64,000 nucleotides of DNA, from contig BRXU01000004.1 of NCBI GenBank assembly GCA_030267565.1, positions 6,197,001 through 6,261,000 on the forward strand. The letters run 5' to 3'. Below are positions 49,300-64,000 of the stretch, one piece after another; positions within the stretch are counted from its first letter, which is position 1, and each line of letters starts with the position of its first letter. The translations under genes were made by a program, and so were the position numbers. Source of the stretch: Pleodorina starrii. Lineage: Eukaryota; Chlorophyta; Chlorophyceae; Chlamydomonadales; Volvocaceae. A model generated the notes under the pieces. The model made no database searches. It had not been told where the DNA came from and worked only from the letters and a program-made list of their open reading frames with translations.

Positions 49300-50350
49300 G
49301 AACAAAAGAGAACCCAATAGGGGCTTCTGCTTCTGCATCCTCACCCGCAGAAAGCTTAAGGAAAGCACGACAGGGAAATCGAGGACGGCACACGTGGGGC
49401 CGTACACCCGTAACGTAATGTGAGGCCGTGCAAGGGATTTCCGTCCGCCTGTTGCGCTGAGGAGCGCCTCGTTAATTCCAGGTTCAATTAGTGTACACCA
49501 GAGTGGGTACTCCGAAGGATGTTGAAAGGCTGGTGGCACTGTTGGGTGAAGGAGGACGGCACATGTGGGGCCGTATCGCCGTAAAGGGGCAGTGCAAGGA
49601 AGTTCCGTCGGCCTGCGGGAGTCAGGAGCGCTTTATTAATAGAATGCTGCAGCACAACGCCGGCACCACGCACGGACAGAAAGAGTAAGAGCCGGCTCGC
49701 GACGGTGACAACAACACCGGCCGAAATGACCCATGGGTCACTTGGAGCCGCGCGTCCATTCTGCCTCGGTCGCCGTACATTGCGAGCTTCGTTTGGTATC
49801 GGTAAGCATGAAGCAAATACAATAGTGCGTTGGCGGAGAATAAAAAGTGTGATATACGAGCGTGTACGTGGGGATGTCGGTCATCGCACAGCCGAGGTGC
49901 CCGTTCCTTGGACGCCAATCGAAAGTGCTCGACTGGCGGACACAGACGGTTGGCCGCTGGCTAGCGACTGGTGGGGCGGTCGCTGCTGTTCTGGCTACTA
50001 GCTTCATGACGTGCTTCCCATGGTTACGCCGTTATTGAAGTGCGACTGTTGTTGGAGAGGGTGCGGTGGCACTCCGTGCTTTTAACCTCGTTCTGCGTCC
50101 GTTGAAGGATCGTTTGAGTTACGTCTGACTAGTTGTAAACACCGCGACGCGCGTGGTCAGCGGCCGCGTGCGGATGCAGCACCGATAACAGGAGCCGGCT
50201 CGCGACGGTCGCGACGTCGCCCACATGACCCATGGGTCACTTGGAGCCAACGATTGCGAGCTTGATTTGGTATGTCGGTACGTATGAAGCAAAATCCCGA
50301 AGAAAGCGTAAGGAAAGCATGCCAGAGTACCCGTTAGGGGCTTCTCAAAC
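49300..50350. repeat. Mosaic of duplicated repeat fragments
   Basis: 50285-50350 (CCGAAGAAAGCGTAAGGAAAGC and following) recurs at 48808-48870 and, diverged, at 49305-49375. 49688-49810, around GACCCATGGGTCACTTGGAGCC, recurs at 50190-50290. These look like pieces of one interspersed family rearranged locally. No gene was recognised. Confidence 0.6.
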
Positions 50351-50394
50351 GCGAAGAACTGTACCAGCAAGCAGGAAGTTAGGGATTTAGCTGC

Positions 50395-50955
50395 TGGATG
50401 GGTGGGTGGCTGGATGGGTGGCTGGCTGGGTGTGTGTGTGTGTGGGTGGCTGGGTGGGTGGCTGGGTGGGTGAGTGGCTGGGTGGCTGGGTGGCTGGGTG
50501 GCTGGGTGGGTGGCTGGGTGGGTGGCTGGGTGGGTGGCTGGGTGGCTGAGTGGGTGGGTGGCCGGGTGGGTGGCTGGCTGGGTGGCTGGGTTGGTGGGTG
50601 GCTGGGTGGCTGGGTGGCTGGGTGGCTGGGTGGCTGGGTGGCTGGGTGGCTGGGTGGCGGCTGGATGGTTGGGTGGCCGGGTGGGTGCGTGGCTGGGTGG
50701 CTGGGTGGCTGGGTGGCTGGGTGGGTGGGTGGGGTGCTGGGTGGTTGGCTGAGTGGGTGGGTGGGTGGCTGGGTGGCTGGGTGGCTGGCTGGCTGGCTGG
50801 CTGGGTGGGTGAGTGGCTGGGTGGCTGGGTGGCTGAGTGGGGGTTGGTGGGTGGCTGGGTGGCTGGGTTGGTGGCTGGGTGGGGTGGCTGGCTGGGTGGC
50901 TGGCTGGCTGGGTGTGTGGGTAGGTGGCTGGGTGGCTGGGTGGCTGGCTGGGTAG
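50395..50955 (+). repeat. GGGTGGCT minisatellite
   Basis: About 560 bp of GGGTGGCT and GGGTGGGTGGCT units. All frames are open on both strands (repeats such as HPATQPPS on -), which creates long artefactual ORFs. The G-rich strand could adopt quadruplexes. Confidence 0.95.
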
Positions 50956-51812: not shown

Positions 51813-54515
51813 AGGTCCTTCTGCTGATGTCGTGCATCCATCCTGTTAACGCATCAGGTTGACGCACTGATCGGACATTTACGGACAACCCCCGCAGCCC
51901 GCACGTGTTTGTGCAACTTATAGCTTGCAACTTTCGGGAGTGGCGTCAAATGAGACGTGCAGCTCAGCACAGACATGAGTGATGATGATGGATGCTGTCA
52001 ACATCATTGGCAGCACCGCAATGCCCGCTGAGGACCGTTGCTTAACCGTTTCTTGCAAAGAAACGGACGGGCAAGTGTTATGTGTTGCTTTCGAGACTTA
52101 ACGTGGCATAGCGGCTCTGGTTAGATTGTTATTTTACGGCATGTGTACACAGGGTCGTACAGGTGCCGGATGGTTCTGGGATGGTCCCGGCGGCCCACAC
52201 CTTCCTGGCCAACCAGGCGGGCCGGTTGTCGGTTCTCCGGACACTGCCTCCCCTCCCGGATGCCCCTGACGGTCTATGTGCTGGCCTGAGTTCGCTTTTG
52301 TGAGTGCATGTCGCGTGTACACTTGACTCAGCTGCTACAGAGGGCTTCAGGTTGGGCCGACATACGTATCGGGACCGTGTTTGCTTATGTTGTTGCCCTC
52401 TGGCGGTGCTTATGGCCCTTGTTTCATTTGATATGGCTCGTTCTTTCTCCCACGAGCTGTTATTGGATGGGACCTGCGCGACGCGTGTGGGGACCTGCAT
52501 GACGGAGCCTAGGCCTTCCTAATTCACGTTCGATTGAAGGGTGCTTATAATGCAACAGCACGTTGGAGACCATTTCTGATGACTACCACACGCGGAACTG
52601 AACCTTGACGAGTGATCACCTTCCCTCGTGCCTCCACTCCCTCTCGCTTTCTTCGGGCAACAGATCCGTAGGATCCCTAACTTATTGGTTACCGATTTTG
52701 GTTCTAAGAACCAAAAGAGGTTTATGTCCCCAGGAGGGGGCGTGGGACCCGTACGTGGGACCCGTATAGCGGTAAAAAGCAGTACCAGGAAGGTACGCGC
52801 AACGCGAAAAAGCTGCGGGCGTGTTCACTGCACAGAGCCGACCGTACATGAGGAGCCGGAACAGGACGAGGAATGGAAGGCACAAAGAAGGCCGGCTCGG
52901 GCCGGGCTGGGCGCCATAATCGCCCGCGTGACGACCAGAAATGAAACGTCCACTAACGACCACCAGAACGCGAACCCGTCTCAGAAAAGATCACACAGAA
53001 GTAGTGGACACGTTGCCATGCGTAGGCATGTCGACTAGAGCAGACAATGGACAAGGGCAAGGAAAGTTGGAACGAGCGGGACAGCGAAACGTTCATTTCT
53101 TTAATGTAACGTGTATGCATACTGTAAAGTTATCAGAGGGCATAAAAACGGCCTGGCAGGGTAGGGCTGGGCGACATCTTGGCCCTCGTGACTACCAAAA
53201 CGGCAACGGTCGCCAACGACCATCATAACAGCACAGCACTTGCCAGGGCGAGACACCCCGCTCCAGTATCGCAACGCCGAAACACGAGTAATAAATAAAT
53301 GAGGAACCACGGAGGGCAACCGTAAATCAGCGCGACTGCGCGAGAGTAACGGCTTCACAGCGACGCACGGCCTGGAGGATAGGAGCGTTAGGACACGCAA
53401 CACACCTGTGCTTCCGATGGAGCGAACATGGCTGCGCTCGCGCTAGGCGGCAACTAGCTGCGGTCGCTGCAAGAAGGCGTGATGCATAGCTAGTTTCACG
53501 CACAGCCTGGCCGCAGCAAGCCTGGCAGTTCCATGTGACGAAGTGACGAAGACCAGGTGACGAAGACCTGCTGCGGGTTGCAGTTCAGAACGTGCGAGCA
53601 TGCTCTCTCGCACGATTGCCGGAAGGCCGCGGACGTGAGGATGCGTTGTCGGACAACATCCTACAACAAGTGCGACAACGCGCGCAGGTCCTCCTAGCAA
53701 GCCAACAGGCCCTGAGGGGATGAGGTATTTCAAAGCTCCCATCTAAAGGGGCACGGGCCATGTGGCGCATCCTCACCCGGCCGCGGCATGCATGGCCCTT
53801 TGCCCCCTATAACGGCCCCGTGTGCGGACGGCTGACCCTGGTCCGCGAGCACAGCCGTCCTTACCCCTTCCCCCAACCCTCCACCCCAACCTCAACAAAC
53901 CCGGAAGTGCAGCCTTCGCACGCACAACTGAGTACAGCTGACGAAAAGCCCCACCAGCTAGGTGATTATTGCCCAAGCATGCTTGGCGGTATGAGAGTCC
54001 CGTACACGGGCCTGTGCCGCCCGGAAGCCAGATTCATAACAGTCCCTGCTTATAGTAGTAGCAACTTTCGCGGATGAAGGGTTCCCCCAATTTGAGTATA
54101 TGGAGGAAGCGATGTAATAGGATCCCCCTCGTTTGGCGACGATGCTTGGGCGCATCTGAGTCCACCGCAACTCAATTGTCCCCTCGGGCCGCTAGTGTCC
54201 CTTTGGGCCCTCGGCTCGTATGGGCTGTTTGTTCATGAGAGGAACACGCACCCCCAACCATGTAACAAACACACACAAAATAACAGTCGAGTCCCAGCTC
54301 CATCAGTAGATAGAGCACCAGCTCCACAAGCCATGGCCCTGTGTCAGCACGAAATGTGCCACATCGTTGGGGGCCATGACGATGACCGAACTCAGATTAG
54401 GCATTTAGCGGGCTGGGTGCACGGTTGGTAATGTACCGTCCTCGACGGTGTAGGTCGTGAAGACGGAGCGGAAAGGCTGTAGCACCTCTTGTGGTGGTCG
54501 GCCGGCGTGCAGTAA
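51813..54515. other. Repeat-rich region without recognised genes
   Basis: 52713-52790 matches the repeat at 17691-17770. A local duplication is visible: about 52885-52985 resembles 53150-53240 (GGGCTGGGCG followed by CGTGACGACCA-type sequence). The remaining frames are short and without motifs. Confidence 0.45.
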
Positions 54516-54519
54516 TCAG

Positions 54520-54880
54520 CCCCCCCGGGGCCCCCCAAAACCCCCCGGGGCCCCCCAAGCCCCCCGGGGCCCCCCCAAGCCCCCCCGGTGCCCCCCAAGC
54601 CCCCCCCAGCCCCCCCGAGGCCCCCCCCAAGGCCCCCGGGGCCCCCACAAGCCCCCCCGGGGCCCCATGTAAGCCCCCCGGGACCCCCCCAAGCCCCCCC
54701 GGGGGCCCCCCAAGGCCCCCTGGGCACCCCAAGCCCCCCCGGGGCCCCCCAAGCCCCCCTAAGCCCCCCTGGGCACCCCAAGCCCCCCCGGGGCACCCCA
54801 AGCCCCCCTAAGCCCCCCCAAGCCCCCCCGAGGCCCCCCCAAGGCCCCCGGGGCCCCCCCAAGCCCCCCTGGGCCCCCCG
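54520..54880 (+). repeat. CCCCCCAAG/GGGGCC minisatellite
   Basis: Units of the type CCCCCCGGGGCCCCCCAAG are repeated about 18 times with length variation. It directly precedes the decayed L1-type fragment at 54884. Long Pro/Gly frames on both strands are by-products. Confidence 0.95.
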
Positions 54881-54883
54881 TGA

Positions 54884-55390
54884 AGTGGGAGTGGGAGAAC
54901 GAGAACAACGAACCGTATTGGCGTTTGGCGATGGACGGCTTCGCGGGCTTCCCCATGCACCGTGCGCAATTCGGAGGCCTAACGTGGCGAGGTGCCCGTG
55001 CGGGGACACCATGTCGCAGGGCGGCCGCATGCATCACTTTTGGGACTGCAGAGTAGCGCAACATTTGAGGTCGAAACTAGAGGGTGCGACCGGCGGTCAC
55101 ATCTCCCGTTGTGAACTATGGCTAGCTGAGCCACCGGTAGGCATCGTAGGCAAGGTTTGAGATATTGTTGTGCTGGCGGCAATTGTAGCGCTGGAACGAG
55201 GGCGGCAGTTGCTTTACAAGTCCCGGGCAGCCGCGCCCTATCAAGGTTTTTGCGATCGAGTAGGGCTTAGTATCGATGCAGCTTTTTGGGAGCGCCTACG
55301 CTGTTTTGCGCTCGTTAGAGACGCCCGCGCGAACTGGGATGACGTCCCAAGCAAGCACCCACTCTTTCCTCCACACGGACGCGAACGTAA
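54884..55390 (+). pseudogene. Decayed L1-type ORF2 C-terminus
   Basis: Parallels the protein at 39884-41350: WEWENENNEPYWRLAMDG, then after a frame change CPCGDTMSQGGRMHHFWDC, CELWLAEPP, a TGA at 55158-55160, then ALERGRQLLYKSRAA and FWERLRCFALVRDARANWDD. The Gln-rich linker and the ITDFF motif of the 39884 copy are absent. At least one frameshift and one stop show it is dead. Confidence 0.75.
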
Positions 55391-58369: not shown

Positions 58370-59303
58370 GGGGATGCAGCTCCGAGTACGTAGCTCTTGG
58401 CCTGGAACCCCGCAGGCCGTGCACACGGCGGTGTCGTGCACCGTTGGTGTCGGTACGTTTCCGGGACAAATGCCCGGTGAGGGCGCGGAGAGACGCTAGG
58501 AAGGACCCTCGAGCGTATCTGGACGTATCTCCATCTTATGGGAGATATTACGGTCGTACTGCTCGTCCAAACGAGCTCCTACCTAGGCGCGAGCGCTTCC
58601 TGCTGGAAGCGCTTCGCTTGGTCATTACGATGCCGAAGGATATATGATATTGTAACACACAATCAGATCCCCAGCAGCGACTCTCGCTGTGGCGTTAGCC
58701 CAAGCCGCCACAATGGTGTCTCACATGCACTAGCGCGGCGCCGGCCGGGCCTGATCAACCTGGCTGGCTGCCTTATCGCTTGTGCATTATAGTAGTTAGC
58801 TCAGCAGCACTGTCGCTCGCGCGCGCGTAGGCGCCGAGCTCGGACCTCACGCTAGGAAGAAGGAGCGCGGCCTCGCCCCAGCGGTCAGGCCTCGGGGCCA
58901 GTACTGGATGCAGTGAGCCCGGCTGCAGTCCAGCTGCTGTCGCGCACGCCCCGCGCGAGCCCACACCAAGCGAAGCTTTTATTGGTGTGTATTCCGGAAA
59001 AGGCGCACTCGAGTGTGGGGATTGTCTGATCCGCCAGTATATGTAGTCGTAGACAGCTGCTGCTACCGAGCTCTGGAGCGTCTGGGCGTAGAGAGTGCCG
59101 TAGACCCGCCATATCGCGTTGACGGCGTCGTTATTTGAATTCACTGCTGGCCCCACCCCCCCCGCCGGAAACCGCGAGATGGTTTTTCGGGGGAGAACAC
59201 CGCTCCGGACGAGATATCACCACGGTGAGTTCCAAGGGGCTTTCGCGATGAGTATGACGACGGGCTGCTACAGCCGGCAGACTTCACGCCGGAGGGGAAG
59301 CGC
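58370..59303. other. 5' flank of the gypsy pol frame
   Basis: A retroviral-type gag, protease or primer-binding site would be expected here but none was found. 59223-59247 duplicates 25 bases of the integrase coding region (63386-63410), marking a rearrangement just upstream of the preserved pol frame. A TGA in the pol frame lies within that stretch (59227-59229), and the frame is open from there on. Confidence 0.5.
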
Positions 59304-62300
59304 ATGCTCCCACCCGAGGCGAAATACGAGGTCACGCCAGGCAAGTGGCTGCTGTGCCAGCGCAGCGAGATGACTCCGGAGCTGAAGCGGCGGTTCCTGG
59401 ACCTGGTGGGTCGCAACGACGACATCTTCGCGCGCAGCATGCGCGATCTGGGCGAGTACCACGGCGACGTAGGGCCTGCCCGCATCGAGCTGGCGCATCA
59501 GCGGCCGATCTATCAGCGCCCGCGCTCCCACAGCGCGGAGGAGTACGCCGCCATGGACGCAGCCTGCCAGGAGCTGCTGGAAGCCGGGATCATCGAGGAG
59601 AGCCGCTCAAGCTCCTTCGCCATGAACTCCACCCTGCCGCCCAAGCGTGCGGCGGACGGCACCTGGACGCAGCGGCGGTTTTGCCAGGACGCGCGCGAGC
59701 TCAACGCCGCCACGCTGCCTGACCTGCACCTATCGCCGCTGCCAGAGCAGCTTTTCCAGCAAGTGGGCGATGCTACGTGGCTGACCAAGATGGACTGCCG
59801 GGCCGCCTTCCTACAGATCCCGCTGGCGCCCGAGCACCGGGAGCGCACTAGCTTCTGGTGGCGCCGGCGGCTGATGCAGTACAAGCGCCTGGTGTACGGC
59901 CTGCGGAATGCCACCGCCCACTTCCAGCGCGTCATGGACCACGCCATCCGCAAGCACGGCCTGCAGGAGTTCGTCGTCTGCTATGTGGACGACTTGCTTA
60001 TCTACAGCCAAACGGCGGAGCAGCACCTTGAGCACCTGGCTCGGGTGTTCGCCATGCTGCGGGAGATTGGCATCCGGCTCCATCCGGAGAAGACGCTGGT
60101 GGGCGGGGACGCGGTCGAGTTCCTGGGCTTCATGGTGTCGGCGCAGGGCCTGTCGCCGACGCGCGCCAAGGTGGAGGCGCTGCTGGCGCTGGAGCCGCCG
60201 AACTCGTCGGCGGCTGTACGGCGGCTGCTGGGCATGTTCTCGTATTACCGGGGGCTTGTTCCGCACTTCGCTGACATCACCGCGCCACTCAACCCGTTGA
60301 CGAGCACCAAGTACGTGTGGCAGCCCAGCTCGTGGGGGCCGGAGCAACAGGCAGCGCTGGACGAACTCAAGCGGATCTACACCCAGATGGACGGGCCGGT
60401 GTTGCGGCGGGTCCAGCCGGACCGGCCGCTTATCCTGCATACGGACTTCTCGGGCGTGGGCATCAGCGGCATCCTCGGGCAGTTGGACGACAGTGGGCAG
60501 GAGTACCTGTGCGCGGCAGTCTCAAGATCGCTCAACGTGCACGAACGTAGGTACGACAGCTACAAGGGCGAGCTGCTGGCGGTGGTGTGGGCGTGCAAGA
60601 TGTTCTACCCTTACCTAGCGGCCCGCCACTTCACCGTCGTCACGGACCACGCGCCGCTGTTGTGGCTCATGTCGCAGCAAGACGGCCTGCCGGCGCAGTA
60701 TGCCCGGTGGGCCTTGCAACTGCAGGCGTTTGCTTTCGACGTGGCGCACCGGCCCGGCAAGCTGCACCAAAACGCCGACGCCCTCAGCCGCCACCCGCTC
60801 ACGTCTGCACACGACGGCACAGGCGCACGCGTCGACGAGGAGGGCGACCCGCTGCGCCCGCCACCCGTGCTAGTTCAGTACCCGGGCGCGAGCTGGCCGC
60901 TGTACGCATACTCGCGTGCGCCGGAAGGCGCGCAGGCGCCGGCAGCGGTCGTCACGCACTTGGCAGCCGTAGCCAGGTGCTCAGCGGCCCTAGCCCGGCG
61001 TTTCTCAGTGCAGCATGACCTGGAGGATCCGGCCACCAGCCTGGCCGCCGCCCCCGAGGCAGTCGGGCCGCTCGCTGGTCTGACACACCTCGCTGGCCCA
61101 GTGCCCGCTGCACGCGCCGCATATCTTTGCGTGCACGCGGTGTGTGCTGTGGTCAGTGTGGGGCTGCCGGTCATGGCGGCATCGGAGCTGGAGATCGACG
61201 ACGAGCTGGAGGCCTTGGCGGCGGGACAGCCCGCCGCCGGGGATACGGAGGCCTTGGCGGCGGGGCAACCTGCCGCTGGGGAGCTGGAGGCCTTGGCGGC
61301 GGGGCAACCTGCCGCCGGGGTGTCGGCGCCTGGCAGCCCCTCGGGGCCGCCGGTCGCCGGCGATACTACATTGCACATTGCCGTTGCGCTCGTTCGCGAC
61401 GAAGCCGCTGCACTACGGCGGCTGCGCGCGGTTTCGGCGCTTGCGCTGCGCCTCCGCGCTGGAACGGGGGAGATTCTCGGAGTCAACACAGCACTTGTTC
61501 AACACGTCCTCTTTCCGGCAGCAGTAGGGGGCACTGGGGTTACGATTCTGGAGCTGCCGGGCGGCCTCGCTTCTGGCCTGCTCGCGTGCCTGGGTTTGGG
61601 TTTTCAGATACAGTGCTACGTGCACCTCTCATGCGACGCCCGCGAGCGGCGCGCGGTGGCACAACTTGTGCCTGTTTGGGGGATGCATTACGATGGGCAG
61701 CTTTCAGCAGGGGCTTGGGATTCGGGGCTAGTACCGGAGTTTAGCACACCCACGGAGCTTCTTCACTGGGGAGCGTCAGCAGCAGCCGTTGAGGCAATGG
61801 GCTTGGGGGACATGTCTGTGTGTTTAGTAGTAGGCAGCTGGGGGGGATCCACGTCCTGGGACACGCAGCACGTAGTTCGTTTCTTGGGGGGATTGCAGCA
61901 CTATCGCAGAGAGCGGCGTCTACCGCCGCCGGCCTTCCTCCTTGAGGGCCCTCACATCAGCATCGACGCGGCGCCGGAGGCGGGTTGGCCCCTGGGCTTG
62001 CCATCGCCTCTCGACGCCGCCGTCACTGGCGCGGCAGTTCACCGCTTGAGCTGCCTTTACACTAACCTCGCCAACGCGGTGCACTTGCAGCACTGCCTCG
62101 CTCAGCTGCGGCCACCAGAGGGCCGCAGCCTGGCCGCGCTGCTGCCGCCTGGGCATAGCCCGGCGGCGGCTTGCACGGTCATGGCCCCGCCTTACGCGGC
62201 GCTCGACATTCCGGGCCGGCCATGGGTGGCGTTACCGCCGCCCTCGGTCTCGGACGCGCCGCTACGGGCGGGGCCCAACCGCACTCCCAGCCGGGTCACT

Positions 62301-64000
62301 GCGGCCGCCTACTCGGCGGCGGCTGGCTTTTGGCTGCGGACGTCGCGGCACACAAAGCTGGAGCTGGAGCTGGAGCTGCTGGAGACGTCATCCCCGCCGC
62401 CGGTCTTCCAGTTCGCTCTCTCCTTCTGCATGGCGCTGCACCGCGCGTTCGTCACGCCGCACGACATGCAGTATCCTGCGGCACGGCACCTTGTGGCCTC
62501 ACCGCAGGGGGGGGGAAGTGAGCTGGCGCCGCCGATTTCTTCTGGGGCCGCGGCAGCGGTCTCGGGGTCGGTGGCAGGACTGGCGGGAGGGGCAGCGCCG
62601 CCGCTACCGGCCTTAGCGGTTTCCGCTGTGGCGGTCCGCTGGTCGGCGGCGGCGGCCTGGGATGAGGAGCTGACGCCGCTGGCCTGCGCCTTGCTGACAC
62701 AGCGGGCGCCTGGGCTGGCGGTGGTCATGGCCACGGCTGGGCTTGCCTCGGCTGTGGATGCGCAGGAGAGCGCATTGGCGGAAGGGACCGACCCTGACGT
62801 GTGGCTTGACGCGTCAACGCTGGCGCACCTCCAGGGCGCGCCGGCGGGGGTCGGGACCGACGGGCGGCCGGAACGGCGCGTGCTCCGACGGGCCGCGCTG
62901 TACCGGTGGACGGGGGATCAATTGCTGAGGGCCTGCAGTGACGGCTCGACGCGGGTCTGCCCACCGCCCGACGCTCGGGAGGCCATCGTGCGGCAAGTGC
63001 ACGCGGTGGCCCACCTGGGCATACGGCGAACCTTGTCGCTGGTGCAGCTGGGTCACTGGTGGCACGGGATGCGAAAAACCGTCCAGCGGGTCGTGCGCAG
63101 CTGCAAGCTGTGCGACATGACCAACAGCGGCGGCGTCGCGCGCCCGATCCAGCTGCAGCCGTTGGCCATACGGGGCATGTTCTACCGCTGGGGCGTGGAC
63201 CTGGCGGGACCTCTGCCCCCGACTGCGCCATTCGGCTATACTTACGTCATGGTGTGCATTGAACATTTCACCAAGCATGCGGAGTTTGTGGCCCTGCGGA
63301 GCAAGCAGCCTGACGAGACGTCCCGCGGCCTGCTGGAGCTGGTGGCCCGGTTCTCGGCCCCAGCCGAAGTGGTGACCGACCGCGGCGGTGAGTTCCAAGG
63401 GGCTTTCGCGGCGCTGCTGCGGCAATGCTTCGTCGACCATCGGCTGACCTCGGCGGGTCATCCCCAAGCAGACGGGGCCGCCGAGCGGCTGGTTCAGGTC
63501 GTCAAGGCGGCGCTGCGCAAGCACTGCAAGGACACGGGAAGGACGGACGATTGGGATCTGCAACTGCCTTGGCTGGCACTCGCCTACCGCTGCTCGCCTC
63601 AGGCGTCGACCCGGTACTCGCCATACGAACTCATGTTCGGCGTGCCGCCGGTCGTACCGCCTGCTGTGCGGGAGCGCATGGCGGAGCCGCTGGGGCTGGA
63701 CGGCCCGGTGGGAGCTTACGCGGCGGCGCTCCAAGAGCGCGCCGCACTTCTGCAGCGGCATGCTCCCATCGCTGCGGCAAATCTGCTCATCGCCCAGCAC
63801 CGAGACACGCGCCGGTACGCGCACGTGCGCTCAGGCAAGTACCGGCCGCAGGCTGTGGAGTTCGCCCCAGGCGACTACGTGTATGTGCGCCGGTCAGCGG
63901 TGCACAACACTCTGCAGATGCCGGTGTACGACGAGGTGCTGCGCGTAGAGCGGGTCGGAGCCATGGGGGTAGCAGTGTTGTTAGGGCGTGATGGGGGGCG
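59304..64000 (+). CDS. pol: Ty3/gypsy pol with DNMT3-like domain between RNase H and integrase (3' partial)
   Basis: The frame stays open to the window end (over 1560 codons). RT: MDCRAAFLQIPLAP, LVYGLRNATAHFQ and catalytic YVDDLL at residue 227. RNase H: LHTDFSGVGI near 380, ELLAVVW, TDHAPLLWL and HRPGKLHQNADALSR near 482-497. Three EALAAGQPAAG repeats follow, then at about 690-975 a domain patterned like the catalytic domain of DNMT3 cytosine methyltransferases (ILELPGGLASGLL near 748; HWG; LVVGSWGGS near 843, where active enzymes have Pro-Cys; FLLEGPH; AAVHRLSCLYTNLAN). Integrase: HHCC zinc finger (His1233, His1237, Cys1267, Cys1270) and D1299, D1359, E1394 (GVDLAG, TDRGGEF, GAAERLV). Gag and protease are not seen upstream. 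ATG 59304 is the first good start after a TGA at 59227-59229. The element copies through RNA and integrates as DNA. Confidence 0.9.
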   Translation, partial: MLPPEAKYEVTPGKWLLCQRSEMTPELKRRFLDLVGRNDDIFARSMRDLGEYHGDVGPARIELAHQRPIYQRPRSHSAEEYAAMDAACQELLEAGIIEESRSSSFAMNSTLPPKRAADGTWTQRRFCQDARELNAATLPDLHLSPLPEQLFQQVGDATWLTKMDCRAAFLQIPLAPEHRERTSFWWRRRLMQYKRLVYGLRNATAHFQRVMDHAIRKHGLQEFVVCYVDDLLIYSQTAEQHLEHLARVFAMLREIGIRLHPEKTLVGGDAVEFLGFMVSAQGLSPTRAKVEALLALEPPNSSAAVRRLLGMFSYYRGLVPHFADITAPLNPLTSTKYVWQPSSWGPEQQAALDELKRIYTQMDGPVLRRVQPDRPLILHTDFSGVGISGILGQLDDSGQEYLCAAVSRSLNVHERRYDSYKGELLAVVWACKMFYPYLAARHFTVVTDHAPLLWLMSQQDGLPAQYARWALQLQAFAFDVAHRPGKLHQNADALSRHPLTSAHDGTGARVDEEGDPLRPPPVLVQYPGASWPLYAYSRAPEGAQAPAAVVTHLAAVARCSAALARRFSVQHDLEDPATSLAAAPEAVGPLAGLTHLAGPVPAARAAYLCVHAVCAVVSVGLPVMAASELEIDDELEALAAGQPAAGDTEALAAGQPAAGELEALAAGQPAAGVSAPGSPSGPPVAGDTTLHIAVALVRDEAAALRRLRAVSALALRLRAGTGEILGVNTALVQHVLFPAAVGGTGVTILELPGGLASGLLACLGLGFQIQCYVHLSCDARERRAVAQLVPVWGMHYDGQLSAGAWDSGLVPEFSTPTELLHWGASAAAVEAMGLGDMSVCLVVGSWGGSTSWDTQHVVRFLGGLQHYRRERRLPPPAFLLEGPHISIDAAPEAGWPLGLPSPLDAAVTGAAVHRLSCLYTNLANAVHLQHCLAQLRPPEGRSLAALLPPGHSPAAACTVMAPPYAALDIPGRPWVALPPPSVSDAPLRAGPNRTPSRVTAAAYSAAAGFWLRTSRHTKLELELELLETSSPPPVFQFALSFCMALHRAFVTPHDMQYPAARHLVASPQGGGSELAPPISSGAAAAVSGSVAGLAGGAAPPLPALAVSAVAVRWSAAAAWDEELTPLACALLTQRAPGLAVVMATAGLASAVDAQESALAEGTDPDVWLDASTLAHLQGAPAGVGTDGRPERRVLRRAALYRWTGDQLLRACSDGSTRVCPPPDAREAIVRQVHAVAHLGIRRTLSLVQLGHWWHGMRKTVQRVVRSCKLCDMTNSGGVARPIQLQPLAIRGMFYRWGVDLAGPLPPTAPFGYTYVMVCIEHFTKHAEFVALRSKQPDETSRGLLELVARFSAPAEVVTDRGGEFQGAFAALLRQCFVDHRLTSAGHPQADGAAERLVQVVKAALRKHCKDTGRTDDWDLQLPWLALAYRCSPQASTRYSPYELMFGVPPVVPPAVRERMAEPLGLDGPVGAYAAALQERAALLQRHAPIAAANLLIAQHRDTRRYAHVRSGKYRPQAVEFAPGDYVYVRRSAVHNTLQMPVYDEVLRVERVGAMGVAVLLGRDGG
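61224..61322 (+). repeat. Triplicated EALAAGQPAAG coding repeat in gypsy pol
   Basis: Three nearly identical units of about 42-45 nt code a flexible linker that joins the RNase H side to the methyltransferase-like domain. Confidence 0.9.
61366..62230 (+). other. DNMT3-like methyltransferase domain (probably inactive) within pol
   Basis: Order and spacing follow the DNMT3 catalytic core. A Rossmann entry ILELPGGLASGLL stands in place of motif I, followed by LGFQIQCYVHLSCDARE (SAM-binding second strand). ELLHWG precedes LVVGSWGGS, where motif IV normally reads G-S-P-C. FLLEGPHIS stands in place of the ENV motif; it keeps the Glu, but Asn-Val is replaced. AAVHRLSCLYTNL stands for the AAHRARYFWGNL-type motif VIII. 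Loss of the catalytic Cys predicts no methyl transfer; SAM binding or a structural role remains possible. Confidence 0.55.

Follow-up and report, generated by a model that had tools for sequence, protein, structure and literature searches.

What is held between the RNase H and the integrase of a Ty3/Gypsy polyprotein in the volvocine alga Pleodorina starrii, and why has it been kept? The question is raised by a stretch of 64,000 nucleotides (contig C4, positions 6197001 to 6261000; hereafter the window, whose numbering is used throughout), which carries a long terminal repeat (LTR) retrotransposon with a long open Pol frame. The original prediction described a long insert separating the two enzymes, and this separation was real, as Pfam domains flank it on both sides while no Pfam domain was matched between the RNase H and the integrase of this frame. 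Profiles, fold and phylogeny supported its interpretation as a DNMT3-derived, catalytically dead domain in the Gypsy polyprotein of a volvocine alga, for which the safest wording is a DNMT3-derived pseudo-methyltransferase module within Gypsy Pol. The module lies on the forward strand at about 61527..62444, with limits taken from the structural match. It had first been placed at 61366..62230, where the domain is indeed found, but its true extent is larger and the start at 61366 is out of frame.

The kinship with DNMT3 was found by way of intermediates, both in sequence and in fold. The profile of the window's family (family A) matched six related elements keeping the catalytic cysteine at 99.6% over 245 columns (hhalign), compared with 0.1% for the reversed control. 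Moreover, for both an intermediate sequence and a structural model, the best match among solved structures was the catalytic domain of DNMT3A/3B, and the structure matches of the model included DNMT3A-DNMT3L structures. A chance resemblance to DNMT3 was rejected, with four reversed-profile controls giving 0.1–0.5%. Against the assignment stands the direct hhalign comparison of family A with DNMT3A, which is near the limit (23% over 31 columns). Direct profiles of families A–E against a DNMT3A fragment were also weak (0.1–28.5%), and the fold predicted from family A alone, as a control, was poor. Searched directly, the domain of the window had no match in Pfam or NCBIfam and, against the PDB, matched aquaporins only (E-values of 0.4 and worse), while the PF00145 profile recovered none of the elements from the genome. 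Because the direct searches with the window's domain failed, the DNMT3 assignment rests on intermediate sequences. The likeness noticed by eye, together with the profile match and the methyltransferase fold on which the original prediction had staked itself, thus held through these intermediates and was weak with the window's family alone. Altogether, there is very little doubt that the insert is DNMT3-derived.

The active site was read motif by motif, with the names and roles that we take these motifs to have. Motif I (LELPGGLASG, 61548..61577) keeps its glycines and has lost the Phe of FxGxG. At motif IV (VVGSWGGSTSW, 61827..61859), Pro-Cys is replaced by Gly-Gly (from 61845), and the catalytic loop after it, of about 14 residues, is deleted. 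The motif VI position (FLLEGPHIS, 61935..61961) has EGP in place of ENV, and the motif VIII region (DAAVTGAAVHRLS, 62016..62054) reads HRLS, so that RxR is absent; its Asp and His were kept in all nine degenerate rows compared, and the second Arg of HRLR was lost in all nine. A further stretch, SSPPPVF (62388..62408), resembles motif X by eye. In the original prediction Pro-Cys was said to read Trp-Gly. The Cys is absent, but that reading is one residue off, as GWPC became SWGG, the Trp being ancestral and the dyad reading Gly-Gly; the second dyad position falls in a gap in some alignments and not in others, with Cys absent there in all of them.

The nine degenerate rows were compared by columns with six Cys-keeping rows, leaving out the partial P0001 and P0014 and the near-duplicates P0003, L042 and L044. 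Of the 75 columns invariant in the Cys-keeping rows, 24 were kept in at least seven of the nine degenerate rows and 24 in two or fewer, and the window retained 31. Nine Gly and five Leu were among the kept columns, as were two residues of the motif VIII region, its Asp and its His. Lost columns included the motif I Phe, the Asp of motif III (replaced by Glu in the window), the Cys (kept in one of nine, family E) and the loop; the ENV Asn, as well as the second motif VIII Arg, was found in none of the nine, and the window's family has also lost the motif II acid. Judged from the sequences, this pattern is that of an enzyme whose chemistry went while its fold stayed, and the domain of the window's family is very probably without catalytic activity.

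The pseudo-methyltransferase insert is not a one-off, because 25 of the 35 DNA matches in the genome searched (136 Mb, 95 contigs) were at least 94% identical over at least 542 bases, the window's own counted. At least five families of domain-bearing elements were found in the P. starrii genome, and the P. starrii protein P0005 is 99% identical to one of its elements. The motif IV dyad, taken for families B–E from the copies read, a subset of those matched in the genome, was Gly-Gly in the window, Cys-Trp in family B (five copies), Glu-Ser in C (three), Glu-Pro in D (three) and Arg-Cys in E (two). It was Ser-Ala in P0013 and Lys-Asp in P0010, P0014 being without this part, and approximately 14 residues after motif IV were also missing in families A, C and D and in P0010 and P0013. 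Pro-Cys survives in the related elements P0008 and P0009, which answers a point left to be checked in the original prediction; Ser-Cys was found in P0006 and Glu-Cys in P0007, P0011 and P0012, and these Ser-Cys and Glu-Cys elements, which keep both the Cys and the loop, may be active. Another such point was whether other volvocine genomes hold the same insert, and the same domain was found at the same place of Gypsy Pol in two proteins of Volvox africanus, P0001 and P0002 (the latter a family A row), and in P0004 of Astrephomene gubernaculifera. These proteins, whose database names are just hypothetical protein or reverse transcriptase, have Ala-Gly at the dyad position where the window has Gly-Gly; the P. 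starrii copy L028 also reads Ala-Gly. In nine out of nine proteins holding both RNase H and integrase, the domain sits between them.

As for the number of times that the dyad was lost, the degenerate rows fell on one side of a branch (support 91/96) in the domain tree, from which motif IV was left out. Evidence against a single loss came from the tree of reverse transcriptase (RT) plus integrase (17 rows; such trees were built without family E), where P0007, which keeps the Cys and the loop, stood beside families A and C, implying two changes. With all rows, a single degenerate clade was marginally rejected by the approximately unbiased (AU) test (p = 0.045), a result that depends on P0007, a long branch with less than half of its columns filled; without it, the degenerate rows were again set apart together by a branch (91/94). 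The integrase-only tree gave an AU p of 0.07 and three changes. A claim of repeated active-site loss was dropped, since the AU result hinges on P0007 and the domain tree fits one loss. From these trees, one old loss, before families A–D and the three volvocine genera split, is most likely, while more than one loss, or an exchange of domains, is possible.

The selection acting on the domain was assessed in the window and 23 near copies, with tests that treat variants as independent. Variants present in two or more copies comprised 9 nonsynonymous and 20 synonymous changes in the domain (ratio per site, pN/pS, 0.17), 2 and 19 in RT-RNase H (0.03), and 4 and 34 in the integrase (0.04), while single-copy variants in the domain were 55 and 40 (0.51). 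The shared variants of the domain departed from the expectation by site counts (p = 3e-6), and they differed likewise from the single-copy ones (p = 0.019). Furthermore, ratios of nonsynonymous to synonymous divergence (dN/dS) of the domain within families, from pairs that overlap, were 0.04–0.51 in family B (six pairs, five of them at 0.04–0.24), 0.15–0.36 in D (three), 0.26 in E (one), and 0.17, 0.34 and 0.79 in C, the last two involving L045, with poorly set limits. Compared with the window, six older sub-family copies gave 0.32–0.42 for the domain; in the comparison with L028 the values were 0.33 for the domain and 0.16 for RT-RNase H, the integrase not being comparable, with seven stops in the L028 frame and its later region out of frame.

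Several observations limit this evidence or weigh against an absolute requirement for the domain. The domain was less constrained than RT and integrase together (p = 0.03; RT alone, p = 0.09), and the single-copy variants also departed from the site-count expectation (p = 0.0012), which makes the baseline unclean. Indels relative to the window were present in 12 of the 23 copies over the compared region and absent from 11, two of which are partial. Six copies (L025–L027 and L029–L031) carry a 7-bp insertion at motif IV (window-equivalent 61838–61844), of which L052 holds a partial form with six of the seven bases; three copies have in common a 1-bp deletion at 62507, just beyond the domain; and 435 bp of the domain are gone, in frame, from L033. 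The frame-broken sub-lineage with the 7-bp insertion has multiplied; damaged copies have thus spread, whether assisted in trans or through duplication. Such spread, even with part of the domain lost, the weaker constraint, and the long branches of the domain in families A and C are what would be expected of a decaying relic, that is, a useless captured enzyme tolerated as a spacer, whose constraint merely reflects an open, foldable Pol frame. This explanation is nonetheless held to be somewhat unlikely: in the copies read from families A–E some 300 residues are retained and the core columns are the same, five of six family B pairs have the low dN/dS already given, and an open frame by itself gives no favour to synonymous change. 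Selection on a degenerate domain, as originally proposed, is thus supported, although RT and integrase are each under stronger selection and elements in which the domain or the frame is broken multiplied too; it is likely that the domain has been kept by selection.

What the domain might do can be approached through DNMT3L, which animals have as a host protein; it possesses an ADD domain and stimulates DNMT3A. The domain of the window shares with DNMT3L the DNMT3 fold and the lack of a functional active site, but it sits inside the Pol of a retrotransposon; unlike DNMT3A/3B, its family is devoid of the catalytic residues. While the homology, the lost active-site residues, the retention in several families and the purifying selection are shown, the binding of a partner is inferred by this analogy; such a binding or scaffold role is the most likely of the readings, with a probability of roughly 0.5, ahead of the relic. 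In this reading, a Ty3/Gypsy lineage now in volvocine algae took up a cytosine methyltransferase of the DNMT3 type, which came to lie in Pol, between the RNase H and the integrase. The Pro-Cys dyad and the catalytic loop, together with the Asn of motif VI and the second motif VIII Arg, then disappeared on the branch that led to the volvocine families, and the structural core was kept. Covalent attack on cytosine would be impossible in the window's family, so that the domain would no longer methylate DNA and might instead offer a non-catalytic DNMT3-shaped surface to a partner, such as some other subunit of Pol, nucleic acid, chromatin or a methyltransferase that is still active, be it the host's or one from a sister element. 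Once bound, and with the C-terminal PHD finger, it could help to assemble or place the pre-integration complex.

A special case of this scaffold is a nucleic-acid chaperone or a spacer between RT and integrase, acting within the element only through nucleic-acid binding or Pol dimers. Its constant place between RNase H and integrase and its predicted fold, of a DNA-binding, oligomerising class, would suit such a role, which can be entertained only tentatively, as the domain has lost two DNA contacts of DNMTs, the catalytic loop and the motif VIII Arg. A fuller version, in which a dead, selected, DNMT3L-like Pol subunit, made before the sampled green-algal families and genera diverged, binds chromatin or a working methyltransferase, and so directs integration or dampens the silencing of new copies as a regulatory pseudo-methyltransferase belonging to the retrotransposon itself, is unlikely as a whole. 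That the partner is specifically an active DNMT is more doubtful still, because no DNMT3/DRM homologue is reported for the group of this chlorophyte case in the available part of a review (PMC9861306). Binding to the methylation machinery and a decoy role, two of the three jobs originally suggested, are compatible with the sequences. The third, a sensor that binds S-adenosylmethionine (SAM) and reports the methylation state of the cell, is the least likely of them for the window's family: family D has retained the glycines of motif I, the acid of motif II and the Asp of motif III, and the motif III column is Glu in the window and Asp in P0001 of V. africanus, but the motif I Phe is absent from nine of nine degenerate rows, the window's family is without the motif II acid, and families C and E have an altered motif I, making this role very improbable. 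A methyltransferase still active through a displaced or retained Cys is hardly credible; the Cys adjoins the nucleophile column in family B and occupies it in family E, and the Glu-Cys and Ser-Cys elements retain Cys and loop, but family A has neither, and not one of the nine degenerate rows compared has the ENV Asn or the motif VIII Arg.

Captured methyltransferases had been reported in retrotransposons of a charophyte (Klebsormidium) and a dinoflagellate (Symbiodinium), as the original prediction stated for these two groups and as the available text of de Mendoza et al. 2018 (PMC5890265), the source for the systems compared here, bears out. KnitGypsy-Dnmt3 of Klebsormidium nitens is an LTR Gypsy element with a Dnmt3-type domain in the Pol frame and a Ka/Ks below 0.2, and resembles the element of the window in having the domain within Pol and in the purifying selection. 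It differs in its conserved key functional residues and DIRS-like repeat arrangement, the window having paired LTRs and neither dyad nor loop; its host is a charophyte and that of the window a chlorophyte. SymbioDIRS-Dnmt3, which methylates CG, and SymbioLINE-Dnmt of Symbiodinium are likewise retrotransposons with captured DNMTs, of conserved key residues, but belong to other retrotransposon classes. No volvocine case of a retrotransposon-captured DNMT was found in the journal literature searched, subscription titles and preprints aside, in line with the original statement that none was known; the available portion of PMC5890265 does not mention Volvox, Chlamydomonas or chlorophytes, and those of PMC9861306 and PMC10538959 hold no such case. 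As far as these searches reach, the occurrence in chlorophyte hosts and the retention of a dead domain across five families appear to be new; the chlorophyte case comprises no fewer than five families in a single genome, with relatives in V. africanus and Astrephomene. It was suggested in PMC5890265 that captured retrotransposon DNMTs methylate the cDNA of the element itself; a clade losing catalysis yet keeping the domain points to some reason beyond methylation for its retention. The Pro-Cys, Glu-Cys or Ser-Cys, and dead elements of one lineage offer natural comparisons for the purpose of the captured domain.

Regarding the rest of the element, all on the forward strand, the Pol frame is open, as claimed, over 59229..63998 up to the end of the window (first in-frame ATG taken at 59304), with the stop at 64533. 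Pfam placed in it the RT (59685..60134; PF00078, 1e-24), RNase H (60417..60731; PF17917, 3.4e-29), the H2C2 zinc-binding domain of the integrase (62961..63128; PF17921, 1.8e-14) and its rve core (63183..63464; PF00665, 1.1e-7; 32.4 bits, just below the cut-off of 32.6), which is the Ty3/Gypsy order. A linker at 61203..61320 has three 39-bp repeats (ELEALAAGQPAAG and variants), its length varying by 39 or 78 bp among some copies. Past the integrase and outside the window lies the PHD finger (L053, residues 67–111; window-equivalent 64098–64232), found as well in 10 of 14 related proteins, and P0007 has a weak Tudor-like match (PF21743, 0.014); these would perhaps make a chromatin-reading tail of the integrase.

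The 5′ LTR (58432..58965, 534 bp, with TG...CA ends) is identical at 533 of 534 positions to its partner outside the window (contig C4 6262500–6263033; window-equivalent 65500–66033), such paired LTRs being those of a Ty3/Gypsy LTR retrotransposon. The window copy measures 7.6 kb (contig C4 6255432–6263033), compared with about 12.3 kb, by the spacing of LTR matches, for others such as those on C42, C10 and C15. The C42 copy has a 1568-codon frame upstream, overlapping Pol in a different frame, with a weak gag-asp_proteas match (3.5e-5, below the cut-off). Because this gag/protease stretch is absent from the short leader of the window copy (58966..59228) and no target-site duplication was seen at its printed flanks, we take it to be internally deleted or recombinant. 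In addition, matches to 58432–59215 (the LTR and about 215–250 bp of leader) showed that the leader up to 59215 is common, wholly or partly, to 13 other LTR-bearing places; some of these (C5, C8, C75) sit upstream of Pol copies, and others may be small non-autonomous relatives.

Finally, some minor observations were made. A further Rossmann-looking tail was seen by eye in the C-terminal 200 residues or so of P0005, P0007, P0010, P0013 and P0014. A second methyltransferase-like domain there was unsupported, with a weak Pfam match to D12 adenine methylases below the cut-off in P0007 (E = 0.023) and none in P0013, and the P0007 tail had no match in the PDB. Hydrophobic, membrane-like segments were noticed by eye in the N-terminal parts of P0006 and P0013 and upstream of the domain of L044. 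Two adjacent PF00145 matches below the cut-off (G000:C1:5825818-5826221; E = 0.009 and 0.12), in consecutive profile order, may be exons of a DNA methyltransferase gene of the host. The window also holds tandem repeats at 50320–50800 and 54501–54912, a dense array of short units of the GTGG/GGCT type and a second array, with units of about 10 bp.
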